Shown: positions 6,266-63,250 of the stretch, piece after piece
Position numbering within the stretch: position 1 is the stretch's first letter
How the letters are laid out: every line of letters starts with the position of its first letter
Assembly (NCBI GenBank): GCA_945860375.1
Contig: CAMAQR010000008.1
Location: forward strand, 43,424 to 107,423
From: Pseudorhodobacter antarcticus
GTDB taxonomy: Bacteria; Pseudomonadota; Alphaproteobacteria; Rhodobacterales; Rhodobacteraceae
Direction of reading: 5' to 3'
Length of the DNA: 64,000 bases
Notes under the pieces: generated by a model
The model's input: the letters and a program-made list of their open reading frames with translations, nothing else
Database searches by the model: none
Told to the model about the DNA's origin: nothing
Translations under genes and position numbers: made by a program

Positions 6266-6295
6266 GACCGCGCAAACGTGACGGATGCCTGCGCA

Positions 6296-6377
6296 TTCAT
6301 CTTGGTCTAAATATCCCCGCCGGAGGCTCTTGTGGTTGGCCCAGAGCCTCCGGCGGGGATATTTAGACCAAGATGAA
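6296..6377. repeat. Perfect 35-bp inverted repeat, family element A
   Basis: The arms 6296-6330 and 6343-6377 are exact reverse complements over 35 bp, around a 12-nt loop. Each arm contains the core GGGATATTT-N4-CAAGATGAA and the inner GC-rich GCCTCCGGCGGGG. It lies between convergent ispG and the dsbA-like gene, so either transcript would fold into a very strong hairpin. The same sequence recurs elsewhere in this window. A role as a bidirectional terminator is inferred. Confidence 0.93.
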
Positions 6378-6399
6378 ACCGCCGCACGATCCCGTGGGT

Positions 6400-9767: not shown

Positions 9768-12323
9768 GTGGTCAGGTTTATCGGGTCTTTCTTTGGGGCC
9801 ATTTTCACGACAATCACCTTGGGCCTTTTGTTCGGGGCGTTGACCATTGGCGGCATTTTCTGGATGTACTCCGAAGGCCTGCCCAGCCACGAAAGCCTTG
9901 CGCAATACACCCCCCCGACCATCAGCCGGATTTATTCCGGAGAGGGGCGCATCATCGATGAATTCGCGCAGGAACGCCGCCTGTTCGTGCCGGTCGAGGA
10001 TATTCCAGATCTGGTGCAGCAGGCTTTTGTCTCCGCCGAAGACAAGCATTTCTACAGTCACAAGGGCTATGACGTCACCAGCATGTTGGCGGCATTCCGC
10101 GATGCGATTGTGTCGCGCGGGTCGAACGTGCGGGGTGCGTCCACCATCACCCAACAGGTGATGAAAAACTTCCTGCTGGACGGATCGCGCAACGTTGAAC
10201 GCAAGGTCAAGGAAATCATCCTGGCCTCGCGGTTGGAAGAAACCTTGTCGAAGGACAAGATCCTTGAGCTATACCTGAACGAAATTTTCCTCGGCCAGAA
10301 CTCGTATGGCGTTGCCGCTGCCGCCCAGACCTATTTCAACAAATCGCTGGAAGATCTGGCCCCGCATGAGGCCGCGATGCTGGCGGCGATGCCGCAAGCG
10401 CCCGGCAAATACAACCCGGTGACTGCGAAGGAACGGGTCACGGAACGGCGCAACTATGTGCTGCGTGAGATGTGGCAGAACGGCTATATCGAAGAGGCGA
10501 CCTATCTTTCGGAAAAGGAACTGCCGCTGGCTTCGGTGCAGAACGGCGACTATGTGCCGTACCGCGAAAGCCTGCCGCCGCGCGATTACTTCACCGATGA
10601 AATCCGCCGTCAGCTTTCTGGCACCTTTGGTGAGGAAGAATTCTTCGGCGGTGGTCTGACCATCCGCGCCACCGCCGACCCCGAAATGCAGGCGATTGCG
10701 GCCCGCGCCTTGCGCCGAGGGCTTGAGAAATATGACCGCGGTCAAGGCGTTTGGCGCGGCACTGGCAAGGCCGTTGCGGCGGACCAGCTGGGGGCCGAAG
10801 CGGATTGGCGCGCGGCATTGGCCGCTGTCACAGACCTGCCGCGCGACGTTGAGGGCTGGAGGGCCGCCGTCGTGCTGGAACTGGGCGAAGACACGGCACG
10901 GCTCGGGATTGAGGGCCCGGTTGAACAAGACCCGATCCTCCCGGCCGAGGATGTGACCTGGGCCCGCAAGCGGCTGGCGGATGGCAAGCTGTCCAAGAAG
11001 GCCCGCGTGCCGTCTGACCTGTTGTCGGTCGGTGATGTCGTGATGGTGCGCGCCCTGGTCAATGACGACGACGACAGCTTTGTCCGCTGGACCTTGCGGC
11101 AGGTGCCAGAGGTGCAGGGCGGCTTCATGGCGATGGACGTCAACACCGGCCGCGTGATCGCGATGCAGGGCGGTTTCAGCTATATGGCCTCGGTGTTCAA
11201 CCGCGCGACGCAAGCAACGCGCCAACCGGGGTCGTCGTTCAAGCCCTTCGTCTATGCGGCGGCATTGGACAGCGGTTTCACCCCGGCCACGATCGTGGTC
11301 GACGCTCCGATTGAGATCGAGACGCCGCAGGGCCTTTGGACGCCCAAGAATGCGACCAATAAATTCTATGGACCAACGCCTTTGCGCACCGGGATCGAAC
11401 AGTCGCGCAACCTGATGACCATCCGCATCGCGCAGGAAATTGGCATGGAAACCGTGGCGGGTTATGCGGAAAAGTTTGGCGTCTACAAGCCGATGAATCC
11501 GTTTCTGGCCAACGCCTTGGGTGCACAGGAGACAACGCTTTTCAAGATGGTTGCCGCCTATGCCATGTTCGCCAATGGCGGCGAGCGGGTTGAACCCACG
11601 CTGGTGGACCGTGTGCAGGACCGCTTTGGTGCGACCATCTACCGCCATGACCAGCGCAAATGCGAGGACTGCAATTCACCGCGTCTGGACAAGGGCGCGG
11701 GCGTCAGGATCACCTCGAACCGCGAAAGGGTGATGGACGCCATCACCGCCTATCAGCTGACCTCGATGATGGAGGGGGCCATTCAGCGGGGCTCGGGATC
11801 GGGTGTCAAGCTGCCGGTTCCGGTGGCGGGCAAAACCGGCACCACCAATGACGCCAAGGACGTGTGGTTCATTGGCTATACATCCACCATTGTGGCCGGT
11901 TGCTACATGGGCTTTGACCAACCCCGCAGCTTGGGCGAAGGCGCTTATGGCGGCACCCTTTGCGTGCCGATCTTCCAAGAGTTCATGAAAGAGGCCGTGA
12001 AGAAGTTCGGCGGCACCAAGTTCAGTGTTCCGCCGGGCGGCTATTTCCAGAAGATCGACCGCTTTAGCGGCGCGAAATTGCCCGACAGCGCCGCTGGCGA
12101 CAACGTGATCTCGGAATATTTCCGCGAGGGTGAAGAGGTGCTGTTCGGTCTGGACGCGCTGGTGGATGGCGGCTTTACCATGGGGTCGAACCTGCCGCTG
12201 TTTGCCTATGGCGAAAGCGATGGGGGGGAACAGGTCGACACTGTGACCACTTCGGATGGTCAGACCAAATCGGTGCCAAAGAAGGCTGATTACGGCACGC
12301 TGTCTTCGGGTGGCCTTTACTAG
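9768..12323 (+). CDS. mrcA: penicillin-binding protein 1A (bifunctional transglycosylase/transpeptidase)
   Basis: Polymerises glycan strands and cross-links peptides at the inner membrane. About 851 residues: an N-terminal membrane anchor (about 5-30), a GT51 transglycosylase domain with the catalytic E-D-K-H-F-Y near residue 90 and R-G-A-S-T-I-T-Q-Q, an OB-like insertion, then the transpeptidase with S-S-F-K (catalytic Ser near 487), S-R-N and K-T-G-T near 690. The GTG at 9768 has AGGGG about 8 nt upstream; alternative GTGs at 9735 and 9744 would add 8-11 residues. It lies directly after the amidase gene, making a cell-wall pair. Confidence 0.96.
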   Translation: MVRFIGSFFGAIFTTITLGLLFGALTIGGIFWMYSEGLPSHESLAQYTPPTISRIYSGEGRIIDEFAQERRLFVPVEDIPDLVQQAFVSAEDKHFYSHKGYDVTSMLAAFRDAIVSRGSNVRGASTITQQVMKNFLLDGSRNVERKVKEIILASRLEETLSKDKILELYLNEIFLGQNSYGVAAAAQTYFNKSLEDLAPHEAAMLAAMPQAPGKYNPVTAKERVTERRNYVLREMWQNGYIEEATYLSEKELPLASVQNGDYVPYRESLPPRDYFTDEIRRQLSGTFGEEEFFGGGLTIRATADPEMQAIAARALRRGLEKYDRGQGVWRGTGKAVAADQLGAEADWRAALAAVTDLPRDVEGWRAAVVLELGEDTARLGIEGPVEQDPILPAEDVTWARKRLADGKLSKKARVPSDLLSVGDVVMVRALVNDDDDSFVRWTLRQVPEVQGGFMAMDVNTGRVIAMQGGFSYMASVFNRATQATRQPGSSFKPFVYAAALDSGFTPATIVVDAPIEIETPQGLWTPKNATNKFYGPTPLRTGIEQSRNLMTIRIAQEIGMETVAGYAEKFGVYKPMNPFLANALGAQETTLFKMVAAYAMFANGGERVEPTLVDRVQDRFGATIYRHDQRKCEDCNSPRLDKGAGVRITSNRERVMDAITAYQLTSMMEGAIQRGSGSGVKLPVPVAGKTGTTNDAKDVWFIGYTSTIVAGCYMGFDQPRSLGEGAYGGTLCVPIFQEFMKEAVKKFGGTKFSVPPGGYFQKIDRFSGAKLPDSAAGDNVISEYFREGEEVLFGLDALVDGGFTMGSNLPLFAYGESDGGEQVDTVTTSDGQTKSVPKKADYGTLSSGGLY

Positions 12324-30511: not shown

Positions 30512-30546
30512 CCGATTGCAGAGGGCATCGAACCCTCTGCAATCGG
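30512..30546. terminator. Perfect 14-bp stem-loop after uvrA
   Basis: CCGATTGCAGAGGG (30512-30525) and its exact complement (30533-30546) enclose the loop CATCGAA. It starts 6 nt after the uvrA stop codon. There is no T run, so termination would be of the structure-only kind or the hairpin may protect the mRNA end. Confidence 0.65.
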
Positions 30547-30591: not shown

Positions 30592-30623
30592 GCCTCCGGC
30601 GGGGATATTTGAGCCAATGTGAA
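30592..30623. repeat. Single half-site of the dispersed palindrome family (element C)
   Basis: GCCTCCGGCGGGGATATTT followed by GAGCCAATGTGAA matches one arm of the 6296-6377 element, with the last part changed from AAGATGAA to AATGTGAA. No matching second arm is present. It lies between uvrA and the convergent DUF2892 gene, next to the uvrA hairpin. Confidence 0.75.
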
Positions 30624-41951: not shown

Positions 41952-42000
41952 CCGGGGGGCCGACCCCCCGGACCCCCCGGGATATTTTCACCAAGATGAA
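41952..42000. repeat. GC-rich hairpin joined to a palindrome-family half-site (element D)
   Basis: CCGGGGGG (41952-41959) and CCCCCCGG (41964-41971) form an 8-bp stem, followed at once by CCCCCCGGGATATTTTCACC and then AAGATGAA, the same core as element A. It occupies the gap between iolE and iolB, inside an operon rather than at its end, so it may modulate downstream expression. Confidence 0.8.
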
Positions 42001-47155: not shown

Positions 47156-47159
47156 TGGT

Positions 47160-47241
47160 TTCATCTTGGTCTAAATATCCCCGCCGGAGGCCCTTTTGAT
47201 GGGCAAGGAGCCTCCGGCGGGGATATTTTCATCAAGATGAA
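47160..47241. repeat. Long inverted repeat, family element B
   Basis: The arms 47160-47191 and 47210-47241 pair over 32 bp with three mismatches, all in the variable 5 bp between ATATTT and CAAGATGAA. The loop contains a further CCTT/AAGG pairing. The left arm is identical to the left arm of element A up to the inner GGAGGC. It lies between convergent phoB and the nucleoside hydrolase gene. Confidence 0.92.
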
Positions 47242-47249
47242 GGCAAGAC

Positions 47250-51935: not shown

Positions 51936-51962
51936 GGCTGCAGTTTGGGCCTTGCGCTGGTC

Positions 51963-52028
51963 CGGGGGTTTCACACCCCCGCGCGGCAAAGGGCCGCTTC
52001 CCCCGTGGGATATTTTTAGACAGATGAA
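51963..52028. repeat. Double hairpin with palindrome-family half-site (element E)
   Basis: CGGGGG / CCCCCG (51963-51981) and GCGGC / GCCGC (51983-51997) are two small stems, followed by CCCCGTGGGATATTTTTAGA and CAGATGAA (52001-52028), a divergent version of the family core. It begins 28 bp after the DUF6636 stop and probably ends that transcript. The remaining 150 bp before the next start contain no other clear signal. Confidence 0.7.
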
Positions 52029-52179
52029 ACGCAAATTTTAGGCAAATTGTGAGGAAATCAGGGGTGTGCAGAACCGGGATTGGCTGCGAAACCGGACCTG
52101 AATGTTTTGATCAAAATATCTCTGGCGTCTGGGCCGCCAATTGGTAGTTTGGCTTTCAGCTTTTGACTGGAGTTTCAAG

Positions 52180-57459: not shown

Positions 57460-58953
57460 ATGTCGGTTTGGTCAGGTTTGGGTGTGAGTGCGCGGGCGGC
57501 GGCGCTTGCGGGTGGCGCGGCAGTTGTTGCGGTGGCGGGCTGGTTTGTTTGGCCGGGCGCAGCGCCTGCGCCCTTGGCTGTTGTGCCTGAGGTGCAGACG
57601 GCGGTTGAGCCGCAAACCGCTTTGGTGGAACCCGCCACCCCTGCGGCTTCCGCCCCCGAAGCCGTCGTGGCGGCAGCCCCGGAGGCACCGGCTCCAGTGC
57701 AAGCCTTGGCAGAGCCTGTCACAACAGCCGCTGATGCAGAGGTTCCGGCTGCCGCGTTGGCAGTCTTACCTCCAGTTATGCCGCTGTTTGATCTGGTGCG
57801 GGTCGAGCCTGATGGCTCTGCGACGGTCGCAGGCCGTGCGGCACCGGGGGCAGCGGTGTCTTTGCGGGTGGACGGGGTCGAAGTGGTGCAGGCGGTTGCG
57901 GATGCGCAAGGCAGTTTTGCGGCGTTGTTCACTTTGCCCGCAAGTGCTGCGCCGCGCCTGATGACTTTGGTCGCATTCGCCCCGGATGGGGCCGAACTGA
58001 TGGGGCCGGACACAGTTGCTGTGGCACCGACACAGCCTGCCCAAACGGCAGTTGTGGTCGTCGCCCCCGAACCCGTCCTTCCCGCCGTTGCTCCCGACAC
58101 CGTCCTGCCCGCCGTTGCTCCCGACACCGTCCTTCCCTCCGTTGCTCCCGACACCGTCCTGCCCGCCGTCGAACCTGCACCGGCTGCGGTCCCGGTGGCG
58201 GAACCGGCCCCTCCGGCTGCGTTGCTTGTGACCGAAGACGGCGTCAAGGTGTTGCAGCCGGGCGCAGAGGTGCCTGCGGAGATGGCCGCCAATGTCAGCA
58301 TCGACACGATCTCTTATGCCCCGGACGGCGCGGTGCAATTGGGCGGGCGCGCCACCGCGAAGGCGTTCGTGCGGCTGTATCTTGACGATGCCGAGCAGGC
58401 CACGGTGCTGGTTGCCGAGGGCGGGCAATGGGCGGCGGTGCTGGCCGATGTGGCGCCCGGCATTTACACCCTGCGCGCCGACCAGATCGGCGCGGAGGGC
58501 AAGGTGACGTCGCGCTTTGAAACCCCGTTCAAGCGCGAAACACTGGAGGCTTTGGCCGTCGTCGCGGCCCCTGAAGCGGCCCCGGTTGTGAACTCTGCGT
58601 CGGCGGTTGCACCTGTGGTGGAAACTGCACCCTTGGCAGAACCTGTTGCGCTGGCCGAAGTGGTTCCTGCGCCCGAAGCGATCGCAACCGAGGACATGGC
58701 ACCGGCTCTGCCCGAACCCGCGCCACTGCCAGCCGTCGAACCTGCCCCTGCGCCCGTGGTGCAGGCTGAACCCGCCAAACCCGCGCCGGTGTCTGTGACG
58801 GTGCAACCCGGCTTTACTTTGTGGGGCATTGCGCAAGAGCGGTTTGGTGACGGCGTGCTTTATGTGCAGGTGTTTGAGGCCAACAAAGACAAGATCCGGG
58901 ACCCCGACCTGATCTACCCTGGCCAGATTTTCACGATTCCAACGCCGCCTTGA
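57460..58953 (+). CDS. LysM-domain protein with N-terminal membrane anchor
   Basis: A 497-residue envelope protein. One membrane segment (about 10-30, G-G-A-A-V-V-A-V-A-G-W-F-V-W) is followed by an Ala/Pro/Val/Glu-rich region of about 400 residues with two short beta domains (about 105-185 and 270-345), then a C-terminal LysM (about 447-497) containing Q-P-G-F-T-L-W-G-I-A-Q-E-R-F-G-D and P-G-Q-I-F-T-I-P. LysM binds peptidoglycan. A 9-residue tandem repeat lies near residue 205-235. GGGGGAAGAA precedes the ATG. The 3' end overlaps the ArsR gene by 23 bp. Confidence 0.9.
   Translation: MSVWSGLGVSARAAALAGGAAVVAVAGWFVWPGAAPAPLAVVPEVQTAVEPQTALVEPATPAASAPEAVVAAAPEAPAPVQALAEPVTTAADAEVPAAALAVLPPVMPLFDLVRVEPDGSATVAGRAAPGAAVSLRVDGVEVVQAVADAQGSFAALFTLPASAAPRLMTLVAFAPDGAELMGPDTVAVAPTQPAQTAVVVVAPEPVLPAVAPDTVLPAVAPDTVLPSVAPDTVLPAVEPAPAAVPVAEPAPPAALLVTEDGVKVLQPGAEVPAEMAANVSIDTISYAPDGAVQLGGRATAKAFVRLYLDDAEQATVLVAEGGQWAAVLADVAPGIYTLRADQIGAEGKVTSRFETPFKRETLEALAVVAAPEAAPVVNSASAVAPVVETAPLAEPVALAEVVPAPEAIATEDMAPALPEPAPLPAVEPAPAPVVQAEPAKPAPVSVTVQPGFTLWGIAQERFGDGVLYVQVFEANKDKIRDPDLIYPGQIFTIPTPP
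58075..58170 (+). repeat. 27-bp tandem repeat within the LysM gene
   Basis: The unit encodes V-L-P-A-V-A-P-D-T and occurs three times in direct succession plus a partial fourth (V-L-P-A-V-E-P). The copies differ only at a few bases, chiefly CTT/CTG and one GCC/TCC change, which suggests recent slippage and possible length variation between strains. Confidence 0.9.
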
Positions 58954-61202: not shown

Positions 61203-61606
61203 ACCGTCACGGCGGCGCGGCCCGGTCCCCCCATTGAGGGGGGCCAGTGCCGCCTGCCGGCGCGTGGTTTCGACCCTGGGCTCTTGCACCGGGCCGCGTA
61301 CGCTCCGCGGGGGATATTTGAGCCAAGATGAAGCCCGCGAAGGTTTGCGGATTTCGCGCTCTGGCTGAGCCGATCCAAAGGTTGTGCTTGGGGCGAATCT
61401 TTTTGATCGACCAAGTCAGGACTTGTGCTGAACCAAACCCGCGCCTGACTCAGTGGTTTCATCTTGGTTCAAATATCCCCCGCGGAGCGTCCGCCCTGAG
61501 TCACGAACGCGCAAGTTGACACTCAAACCGCGACAGCGCGGCGCGGCCCCCCTTCGATGGGGGGGCTGGGCCGACCCGCTGGTCAGGTCAGGCTGGGATG
61601 AACACG
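61203..61606. repeat. 404-bp intergenic region with a split inverted repeat (elements F1/F2)
   Basis: No gene is seen here. F1 (61300-61332) and F2 (61458-61490) are inverted copies of a 33-bp sequence with one mismatch, containing the core GGGATATTTGAGCCAAGATG, separated by 125 bp. Outside them lie two similar GC-rich hairpins, CCCCCC/GGGGGG type, near 61226-61243 and 61547-61567, each preceded by GGCGCGGCCC. The region lies between the convergent ABC transporter and RTX-like genes. A long-range stem is possible; alternatively the two halves serve the two flanking genes. Confidence 0.85.
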
Positions 61607-63250
61607 TCAGGCGTCGCGCACCAGGATCACATCTGAAAGGTTCGGCGTCGTGCTGCCCATGATGTGGGCGACGGGTTCGCCGTTGATGCGCAGGATATGA
61701 TGGGCGTTGCCGGGGCCCGCGACGATGGTCAGCACGGGCGGCACTTCGACAGTGTCGCTGCCATAGACCGGGGTGTAGTGGATTTCAAGCTGATCCTCAC
61801 CCGTGACGTAATCATTGATCACGGCGATCTGGGTGCTTTCCAGCCAGCGGTTGTCAATCTCCAGCGTGTCGTTGCCACTGCCGCCAAGGGCTATGTCGCC
61901 GCGCCCGACGATCCCTGTGTCATTGCCCGCACCCGCCGACAGGGTGTCGATGCCGTCGATGGCGGTCAGGCTGTCATCCCCCGCGCCGCCCTCAACCGTG
62001 TCGGCATCCGCGCCGCCGGTCAGCACATCGGTTCCCTGCCCGCCGACGACACGGTCGTTCCCCGCGTCGCCCGTCAGGCTGTCGTCGCCAAAGCCACCCC
62101 AAAGCGTGTCATTGCCACCTCCGCCACCCACCGAATCGTTGCCTGCATCGGCTCGGACGGAGTCGTCGCCTTCGGGCAATCCGGCTTGGTCATTGCCGAT
62201 GCCCAAATTGGCATGGTCATCGCTGGTGGAACCCGTCAGCGTGTCGACTCTTGCACCGGTGAACCATTTGGTTGGATCCGTGCCACCACGGGCGGTGTCA
62301 TGGCCATCGACTTGCACCACTTCGCCAGCATGGTCGCCACGGGTATCGGCCGTGTCGGTGCTGGTGTCGGCCACCAGTTCAATGTCAGCCAGCGTCAGAT
62401 CGGTGACGCCGTCCATTTGCGCAATCACAAAGCCGTTCATGCGGATCAGGCTGCTTTCGCCATCGGGTGACAGTTCTATGCGCAGCTCGGGCGGCAGTTC
62501 CACGTTGGTGTCAGACGCTTGGCGCGGAATGTGGTGCAATTGCAACTGATCTTCGGCGCGGTTCAAATCGACGATGTGGAACTGGTCTGTGCTGTCGGTG
62601 AAACGGTGATCGAGATGGGAATTGTCATCGCTGGCCCCGCCCAAAGCGCCGCCGCCGGAGCCCATCAACAAGGTGTCGTTGCCGATTCCGCCGAGCATCT
62701 GGTCAATGCCTTCGGGCGCGGTCATGCCCGGTGACCCTGCGTCTGCACCGGTGGATTCGGACAGAAAGACATCCCCTGCGCCGCCCAAAAGCGCGTCGGC
62801 TCCAGTGCCGCCCGTCAGCCAGTCATCGCCGTCATCTGCGGCCAGACTGTCGTCGCCGGTGTTGCCCCACAAACTGTCATCAACCGCACCGCCCAACAGG
62901 CTGTCACCGCCGATGCCGCCCGCAAGGCTGTCATCCCCTGCGCCGCCCAAAGCGAGATCGCTGCCAGCGCTTGTTTCGGCTTTGTCATTGTCGGAACCTG
63001 CAGTGATATGGTCATGGCCTAAAGACCCGGCGAACCGGTCATCGCCCCCGGCCAGAAACCACGCCTCCGAGTCACCCGCCGTGGTGATGTCATCTTCGTC
63101 ACGGGTGCCGTCGCGGGCGTCAGTGTAATCTGCGGCATTATCAAGCGGGTCGTTGTCGGTCGTGCCCGAACCGCTGCTTGCGTCCAGCGCAAAGTTGACG
63201 CCAAGCGCACCCAGAAACAAAAACAGGTTGACGAGGATGCTGACGTCCAT
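61607..63250 (-). CDS. RTX-like calcium-binding repeat protein
   Basis: A 547-residue acidic protein. A hydrophobic N-terminal segment (about 3-22, V-S-I-L-V-N-L-F-L-F-L) may be an uncleaved anchor. Two blocks of nonapeptide repeats of the G-G-x-G-x-D-x-L type follow (about 65-200 and 335-455), many degenerate, for example G-N-T-G-D-D-S-L and G-G-A-G-D-D-S-L. Each is followed by a strand-rich domain with the motif F-H-I-V-D-L-N-R or I-A-V-I-N-D-Y, so the protein looks internally duplicated. Such repeats bind calcium in the exterior or periplasm. No secretion genes are nearby. The ATG at 63250 begins M-D-V-S-I. Confidence 0.85.
   Translation of the reverse strand: MDVSILVNLFLFLGALGVNFALDASSGSGTTDNDPLDNAADYTDARDGTRDEDDITTAGDSEAWFLAGGDDRFAGSLGHDHITAGSDNDKAETSAGSDLALGGAGDDSLAGGIGGDSLLGGAVDDSLWGNTGDDSLAADDGDDWLTGGTGADALLGGAGDVFLSESTGADAGSPGMTAPEGIDQMLGGIGNDTLLMGSGGGALGGASDDNSHLDHRFTDSTDQFHIVDLNRAEDQLQLHHIPRQASDTNVELPPELRIELSPDGESSLIRMNGFVIAQMDGVTDLTLADIELVADTSTDTADTRGDHAGEVVQVDGHDTARGGTDPTKWFTGARVDTLTGSTSDDHANLGIGNDQAGLPEGDDSVRADAGNDSVGGGGGNDTLWGGFGDDSLTGDAGNDRVVGGQGTDVLTGGADADTVEGGAGDDSLTAIDGIDTLSAGAGNDTGIVGRGDIALGGSGNDTLEIDNRWLESTQIAVINDYVTGEDQLEIHYTPVYGSDTVEVPPVLTIVAGPGNAHHILRINGEPVAHIMGSTTPNLSDVILVRDA

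Follow-up and report, generated by a model that had tools for sequence, protein, structure and literature searches.

Introduction

The closest described relatives of the element reported here are the REP, BIME and REPIN repeats, which are short, dispersed and lineage-specific, form hairpins between genes, sit at gene 3' ends, occur as paired units, carry a constant GTAG or CGTC at the foot of the hairpin and are associated with RAYT transposases. Palindromic elements of Rickettsia are inserted in frame within genes; intrinsic (Rho-independent) terminators place a GC hairpin and a T-containing tail at gene 3' ends; and DNA uptake sequences (DUS) stand at high density, within coding sequence too. 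The DUS of Neisseriaceae form species dialects that differ by single bases and occur as inverted pairs at terminators, according to the available portion of PMC3630211. Among REPs, the CGTC type has a terminal tag, a stem of 8-9 bp and a CCA-like tail (PMC3733652, section 6), and the accessible part of the same article places CGTC repeats in all alphaproteobacterial orders, with a structure other than that found here. Gene transfer agent genes are particularly well conserved in Rhodobacterales (PMC9836097, available text).

The present element shares with REP, BIME and REPIN repeats all of the general traits listed above, but it has no constant GTAG or CGTC at the hairpin foot, its stems vary, the 20-22 bp downstream of the hairpin are conserved, its terminal "barcode" can shift in concert, and a RAYT went undetected in genomes with 42 and 46 copies. 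Like the Rickettsia elements it includes palindromic units in frame inside alphaproteobacterial genes, but its sequence is not known to be related to theirs, and it is mostly intergenic. It resembles DUS in its single-base species dialects and inverted pairs at terminators, but it is some ten-fold or more sparser, almost absent from coding sequence and coupled to a hairpin module. Its GC hairpin and T-containing tail at gene 3' ends recall intrinsic terminators, but the GGRTATTT box holds no U run, the barcode is conserved beyond the tail, strand preference is not significant and ordinary terminators are found alongside.

Results

Searching the window (the whole stretch of 64,000 nucleotides that was analysed) for GGGATATTT-N4-CAAGATGAA, hereafter the core, with up to 3 mismatches returned nine matches at six intergenic places, seven exact and two with two mismatches, where 100 shuffles of the window gave a mean of 0.02 and a maximum of 1. 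An earlier note on this DNA had named nine copies at these six places, and the excess over shuffles bears it out. Four places lie between convergent genes (6296-6377, 30592-30623, 47160-47241 and 61296-61494), as the note had counted and as predicted genes and one translation agree; the other two, 41972-42000 and 52001-52028, lie between codirectional genes. The last convergent place falls in a gap at 61.2-61.6 kb, and the second codirectional one in a gap at 51.9-52.2 kb. Within the window no tRNA was found, and Rfam gave 0 matches at gathering score.

The repeating unit is a non-coding stretch of about 50-75 bp, made of a GC-rich hairpin module, the box GGRTATTT, 3-4 free bases and a nonamer barcode that usually ends in GAA. 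Since the unit is hairpin module plus core, single-arm copies that had been taken for half-sites are each a whole unit. The palindromic double element at 6291..6382, between ispG (+) and a DsbA-like gene (-) (neighbours named by Pfam), consists of two units around one common A-type stem GCCTCCGGCG, with cores at 6296-6317 (-) and 6356-6377 (+). The stretch folds into a single long hairpin with arms of 40 nt (6291-6330 and 6343-6382) that show 95% complementarity, the inner 35 being perfect, as first described. A second palindromic double element (47157..47244; cores 47160-47181 on the minus and 47220-47241 on the plus strand) lies between a response-regulator gene (+) and a nucleoside hydrolase gene (-). 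Behind uvrA stands a single A-type unit on the plus strand (30592..30623), facing a small minus-strand gene and carrying the barcode variant CAATGTGAA; upstream of it, directly behind uvrA, a strong separate hairpin at 30512-30546 has a similar loop in the congeneric locus L161. The short gap between an iolE-like gene (AP_endonuc_2) and iolB (KduI/IolB) holds a single plus-strand unit with a GGGGGGCCGACCCCCC-type hairpin (41952..42000), and an ATG within it is a possible start of iolB. The plus-strand unit at 51962..52028 combines a B-type hairpin GGGGGTTTCACACCCCC with a second hairpin and a core with 2 mismatches; an AT-rich string of the kind AAATTTTAGATAAATTTTAG follows Cypionkella B-type copies here (52029-52060) and at loci L022 and L123; this tail looks conserved. 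Finally, two single F-type units (CGCTCCGCG) at 61296..61332 (+) and 61458..61494 (-) face each other at 160 bp from anchor to anchor. The two arms proposed at 61.3-61.5 kb are thus present, but unlike the other two double places they share no hairpin.

Beyond the window, a core scan with one genome per species gave at least 119 stretches with the core. The 80 that were listed are nearly all titled Rhodobacteraceae, Paracoccus, Roseovarius and kin, with a few named otherwise (candidate division KSB1, Sphingomonadales, 'Proteobacteria'). Across 132 exact copies, drawn from the 119 stretches and two further loci, the core is mostly preceded by a stereotyped GC module from a small set of interchangeable types common to several genera: A (GCCTCCGGCG), B (CCGGGGGTTTCACACCCCCGGACCCCCGT), C (GGGGGCGCTGCCCCC..CCCCC), D (GGGGGCCAGCCCCC..CCCCC), F (CGCTCCGCG) and further two-hairpin forms. 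The four free bases favour NNRS (139 exact copies). All 12 of 12 named genomes, picked because they contain the core, hold 38-131 copies each at up to 2 mismatches and none of the reversed pattern.

Genes flanking the copies were predicted with a gene finder that recovered annotated stops at 10/10 in one stretch, 27/27 uncut in a second and 7/9 in a third. For 137 cores selected for being exact (119 loci plus the window), 44 lay in convergent gaps, 40 in codirectional gaps in sense and 30 in antisense, and 4 in divergent gaps, with 6 inside predicted genes and 13 at locus edges; paired units supply one of each orientation, so these orientation counts depend in part on one another. Of all intergenic bases 25% lie in divergent gaps, and 4/118 is therefore a strong deficit (p 2e-10); convergent gaps are enriched (44/118, p 4e-10). 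The codirectional excess of 40 sense over 30 antisense is not significant (p 0.28), and units without a neighbour unit within 200 bp, counted with a slightly wider pattern, divide into 34 sense and 25 antisense. On the P. ferrooxidans chromid 97 units are spread over 1.46 Mb, about one every 15 kb, and 93/97 stand outside genes: 35 convergent, 33 sense, 24 antisense (p 0.29, not significant), 1 divergent (1/93) and 4 in genes. In P. pantotrophus, 66 of 70 units lie outside genes and 1/66 in a divergent gap. The S2 hairpin subfamily by itself looks sense-biased at 6 to 2, numbers too few to decide. A strand-specific RNA signal was rejected on these near-even orientation counts. RNase E sites, for which the available text of PMC6238624 gives a general AU preference, were set aside as well, that preference explaining no barcode.

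Units that face each other favour certain spacings. Anchor distances of 45-46 and 55-57 bp account for 9/17 P. ferrooxidans pairs within 160 bp, and the GGGATATTT loci give 43, 45, 45, 45, 55 and 160 bp; P. pantotrophus pairs add little because they are largely the same places as those of P. ferrooxidans. Spacings one DNA turn apart would suit a protein on one face of the helix, but a hairpin-loop constraint would fit too.

As to structure, stems of at least 9 pairs occur in 8 of the 33 H-type units of P. ferrooxidans against 31/660 shuffles, and five of the 33 have a perfect 15-16 bp stem with a TCGA loop and a different sequence in each (0/660 shuffles); a stem of at least 6 is present in all 33 but also in 400/660 shuffles and so means little. 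The 45 nt upstream have a mean z of -2.9 for these 33 units and -0.7 for the other 64 (mononucleotide shuffles). Canonical terminators stand at 19/77 P. ferrooxidans gene ends with an element versus 61/454 without (p 0.015), and at 12/49 versus 71/485 in P. pantotrophus (p 0.09). Being at least as common beside elements, they are not replaced by them; behind rpsD, for instance, a hairpin with a T-rich tail is followed by the element. Given no significant strand preference and co-occurring canonical terminators, the units are not simply terminators, and the idea of a dedicated bidirectional 3'-end signal is not supported as it was put in the earlier note.

A looser pattern, GGNTATTT-N4-MAMNNNGAA, has at least 5 matches, both strands summed, in 20/81 Rhodobacterales genomes (G004 included; 7 of the 20 have merely 5-8), and its reversed control at most 2 across the 81. 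Match places were listed for 9 of the 20, and one or two right halves dominate in 8 of these 9. Genome G103 has CAAAGTGAA in 18 and CAAAGAGAA in 12 of 35 copies, and G255 has CAAAGTGAA in 9/13; AAAATGGAA makes up 8/10 copies in G257 and 5/8 in G091, and CAATTGGAA all 11/11 in G111; CACATGGAA accounts for 6/7 in G262 and for the 3 copies listed, of 48, in G092; and G004 has CAAGATGAA and CAATGTGAA. The pairs G257/G091, G262/G092 and G103/G255 thus have a barcode in common. Genome G106, with 7 places and 7 different right halves, none in common, has either no dominant barcode or chance or decayed copies. In the other 61/81 genomes of the order matches number 0-3, and barcodes there may be different or absent; of 115 genomes drawn from the class, G004 alone has 5 or more, the rest having 0-3, equal to the control.

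CAAGATGAA is the barcode of the window's relatives: described in the earlier note as a constant part, it holds in part of the order and not throughout. The chromids of P. denitrificans and P. versutus, searched to 3 mismatches, have no CAAGATGAA core within 2, and have 64-88 matches each to GGGTATTTGNRRAACGGAGAA (up to 3 mismatches; reversed control 0), with several barcodes held together (AACGAAGAA, AACGGAGAA, AACAGAGAA, AACGGTGAA and S2 forms). That the right half is a species barcode, with concerted change in place, is a larger finding than the repeat itself.

Change in place can be followed between close relatives in Paracoccus. A 20-kb stretch of P. versutus UW1, used as query, matches P. 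ferrooxidans pFER4 at 99.0% identity and P. pantotrophus pPAN3 at 93.6% across 57% of its length. Composite places number 77 in pFER4; for 71 of them pPAN3 has a syntenic counterpart, and 65 of those 71 hold an element. The six without one by pattern read as one degenerate copy, two places that are a duplication and three that align poorly, and the 71 yielded neither a clean empty site nor a target duplication. Single units are 93% identical in the box bin, 83% in the barcode bin and 80-88% in upstream bins; the bases directly behind the core, at 81-84%, are as variable as the barcode, and the outer flanks are 88-94% identical. After one place was dropped for its long segment, 89 units could be aligned, of which 35 have the same barcode class, 35 another and 19 are not typable. 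Ten of the 35 class differences are the one-base S2 difference described below. Whole barcodes have switched at 174384 and 183678 (S2 to S1) and, to AACGGTGAA, at 167435, 167613, 262296, 475743 and 1013463; hairpins have been exchanged at 222972, 535923 and 599973, and a loop at 174384.

The S2 subfamily, GGATATTTNNNCANGNAAGAA, shows the same base differing at many places. It reads CACG in 13/14 copies in each of P. versutus UW1, P. versutus DSM 17099 and P. ferrooxidans, and CAAG in 16/16 P. pantotrophus copies and the 1/1 P. denitrificans copy. CAAG is probably the ancestral state, because it is found in all copies of the latter two species and in one leftover copy, with the same core, in each replicon of the P. 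versutus group; in CP038202.1 the sole S2 copy to retain it, at 1353778-1353798, has an apparently intact hairpin. Nine of 15 P. ferrooxidans S2 units pair well by their flanks with a P. pantotrophus S2 unit; eight of these show the base difference and the ninth is the leftover CAAG copy. At 471784, 665615, 665656 and 1211517 the left 20 bases are 19-20/20 and the right 18-19/20 identical; the neighbours of the other four have altered too, the right side being 5-12/20 identical. On a rough calculation, the probability that eight units changed independently to one and the same base is near 1e-12 at 10% divergence. Reader-driven selection or very short conversion tracts may have caused the difference.

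Local rearrangement was also seen. In CP038202.1 the 3' regions of rpsD and acnA (540600-540800 and 541480-541680) contain a nearly identical hairpin-plus-element stretch, inverted, as if copied between neighbours, and at 680650-680850 one element, flanked alike both times, recurs after 174 bp, which looks like a tandem duplication and is not seen in P. pantotrophus. The gcvH-gcvP junction of a Phaeobacter inhibens plasmid differs by 12 bp in length between strains.

The nearest genome compared with the window itself is G004, Cypionkella psychrotolerans (locus L022), with ispG 95% identical and a syntenic contig. Where the window has an A palindrome at the ispG 3' end, G004 has a degenerate B form; at the nucleoside hydrolase junction the window's A palindrome stands against a form with GGAGTATTT and CAATGTGAA, which differs in module and barcode and lies upstream of where the hydrolase gene ends. 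The barcode variant of the uvrA unit in the window is thus found again in G004. The iolE-iolB junction of G004 keeps a similar hairpin with an unrecognisable core, the 52.0 kb window copy is not seen at the matching junction on G004 contig C91, and the copies near 11041, 48444 and 61861 of C91 are not seen in the window. The uvrA 3' region is very variable in the genus (13 loci, 12 readable), and a box-like string lies within 260 nt of ispG in 5/30 loci of the family. On these alignments, modules appear to change fast between congeners.

Some copies lie inside genes. One is in frame in a MOSC-domain gene of the P. versutus group, P. pantotrophus and P. denitrificans, where the insert is 24 residues (72 bp) of translated hairpin B plus core. 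In an alignment of 11 homologues, 8 have no insert, P0001 and P0003 have it and P0026 has a different one there. Among the best 120 homologues the loop is readable in 115 and 9 residues long in 88. Core-like Y[LF]..E occurs in 21 long loops, SHP (expected from hairpin B) in 16 loops, 15 of them long, and ALPP (expected from hairpin C) in 9, of which 6 are long and 3 have nine residues; in the last three it must be chance. Barcode translations differ. For homologues known as protein alone, the motifs suggest that the loops would likewise derive from the repeat. A second in-gene copy lies in a squalene/phytoene-synthase-like gene, for which 12 aligned Paracoccus homologues comprise 5 with a long insert, 6 without and 1 intermediate, and a third in the tail of a protein that we take to be DEAD-box-like.

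Kinship with REPs, as the earlier note had suspected, is supported by the dispersed, intergenic, 3'-end placement, the hairpin or palindrome and the paired units, with 38-131 copies in 12/12 genomes and 93/97 units outside genes. Membership of the RAYT-linked REPs fails on tag and transposase, and we regard the element as a variant of REP-like repeats. No GTAG or CGTC tag, 8-9 bp stem or CCA-like tail was recognised in 132 copies read by eye, and CGTC REPs, in the structure given in section 6 of PMC3733652, were rejected. The RAYT-like partner envisaged for the element is detected in three of six genomes: model NF047646 has one match each in G004, G007 and G012 and none in G001, G002 and G046 (a divergent Y1 protein is possible), of which G001 has 42 and G002 46 copies. 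No core at up to 4 mismatches lies in the 5.0-5.5 kb around the RAYT genes of G004, G007 and G012, and tblastn of two of these RAYTs against two Paracoccus chromids and the window gave a best E of 0.18. RAYT was on both counts rejected as the mover. Single RAYT genes of two genera, at L158 2457-2963 and L159 2013-2651, each lie near a small gene that presumably resembles a cold-shock protein. The earlier note knew of no named family, and none emerged from Rfam at gathering score or from the literature searched, in which subscription journals are thinly covered, so that an older description may exist; the available portions of PMC2817692, PMC2267715 and PMC3733652 do not contain the words Rhodobact-, Roseo- or Paracoccus.

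Discussion

We favour, at a probability of roughly 0.55, a REP-like repeat that was mobile at first and whose barcode a putative trans-acting factor reads. Unit copies would have been inserted whole at some time, with insertions tolerated mainly directly behind genes; a sequence-specific factor, putatively recognising box and barcode on double-stranded (or locally single-stranded) DNA, would keep the copies alike, and after a shift in its specificity the barcodes would follow at many loci, in place. We infer that the factor exists, that it is a protein (an endonuclease, recombinase or DNA-binding protein) and that insertion is its work. Speaking for this explanation are the species barcodes, the coordinated one-base difference, in-place switching, the MOSC insertion, avoidance of divergent gaps and the pair spacings. 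Against it stand the failure to find a transposase or other partner (RAYT in 3/6 genomes), movement not seen at short range (65/71 syntenic places keep the element at about 93% identity), barcodes that are not uniform everywhere (Paracoccus chromids, G106), the want of a clean empty site, and bases directly behind the core that differ as much as the barcode; gene conversion of very short tract could mimic factor tracking.

A rival reading is a functional double-stranded DNA site that was never mobile, such as an insulator, a site for a topological or nucleoid protein or a roadblock at gene ends, with copies arising by mutation and selection and tracking their protein's DNA-binding domain. Placement at the ends of genes, orientation that is near even, avoidance of divergent promoters, preferred spacings about one helical turn apart, places conserved for 65/71 and the one-base change of barcode between unaltered neighbours at four loci all suit such a site, but the 72 bp of hairpin and core inserted in frame in a gene, interchangeable stereotyped modules common to several genera and the apparently fast change of modules between congeners do not, and we consider it unlikely. 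Lower still we place a lineage-specific intrinsic terminator, often bidirectional, in which the hairpin is followed by the U-containing box: the perfect 15-16 bp stems of differing sequence in 5/33 H-type units (0/660 shuffles), the mean z of -2.9 upstream and the enriched convergent gaps point that way, but strand preference is not significant (40:30, 33:24), the hairpin of the H types is followed by no U run, the 64 non-H units are weakly structured upstream (mean z -0.7), canonical terminators co-occur (19/77 with, 61/454 without) and the barcode beyond the tail would have no role, which makes the proposal improbable.

We know of no DNA uptake specificity in Rhodobacterales, and this weighs against a DNA transfer tag with species dialects, resembling the DUS of Neisseria or the USS of Pasteurellaceae and spreading because DNA that bears it is preferentially taken up in natural transformation or packaged by gene transfer agents. 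In its favour, allelic replacement would alter a barcode and leave its local neighbours, and the one-base dialects and inverted pairs at terminators resemble DUS as set out in the available portion of PMC3630211; but units number only about 1 per 15 kb (97 in 1.46 Mb), 4/97 lie inside genes and a hairpin module moves along with the tag, and we hold this to be the most improbable of the readings. Under the favoured explanation, that of a REP-like repeat with a trans-acting reader, kept positions together with the same base differing at many places indicate such a reader. It is possible, though we would bet against it at present, that many Rhodobacterales species have their own genome-wide nonamer tag with a fast-evolving trans-acting reader, a change of which rewrites the tag in place with loci kept. 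If true, bacteria would here possess a system for self-tagging or homing that evolves in concert in a drive-like manner and differs from both classical REP-RAYT and uptake sequences; the barcode could serve as a probe for finding the reader, and a reader that proved to be a nuclease, recombinase, packaging or uptake protein would bear on DNA movement within Rhodobacterales.

A practical warning follows for annotation, in that some insertions in Rhodobacterales proteins are translated repeats and not protein features. The window also contains repeats of other kinds, namely 27-bp tandem coding repeats at 58059-58193 and a repeat-rich minus-strand gene at 61918-62948.
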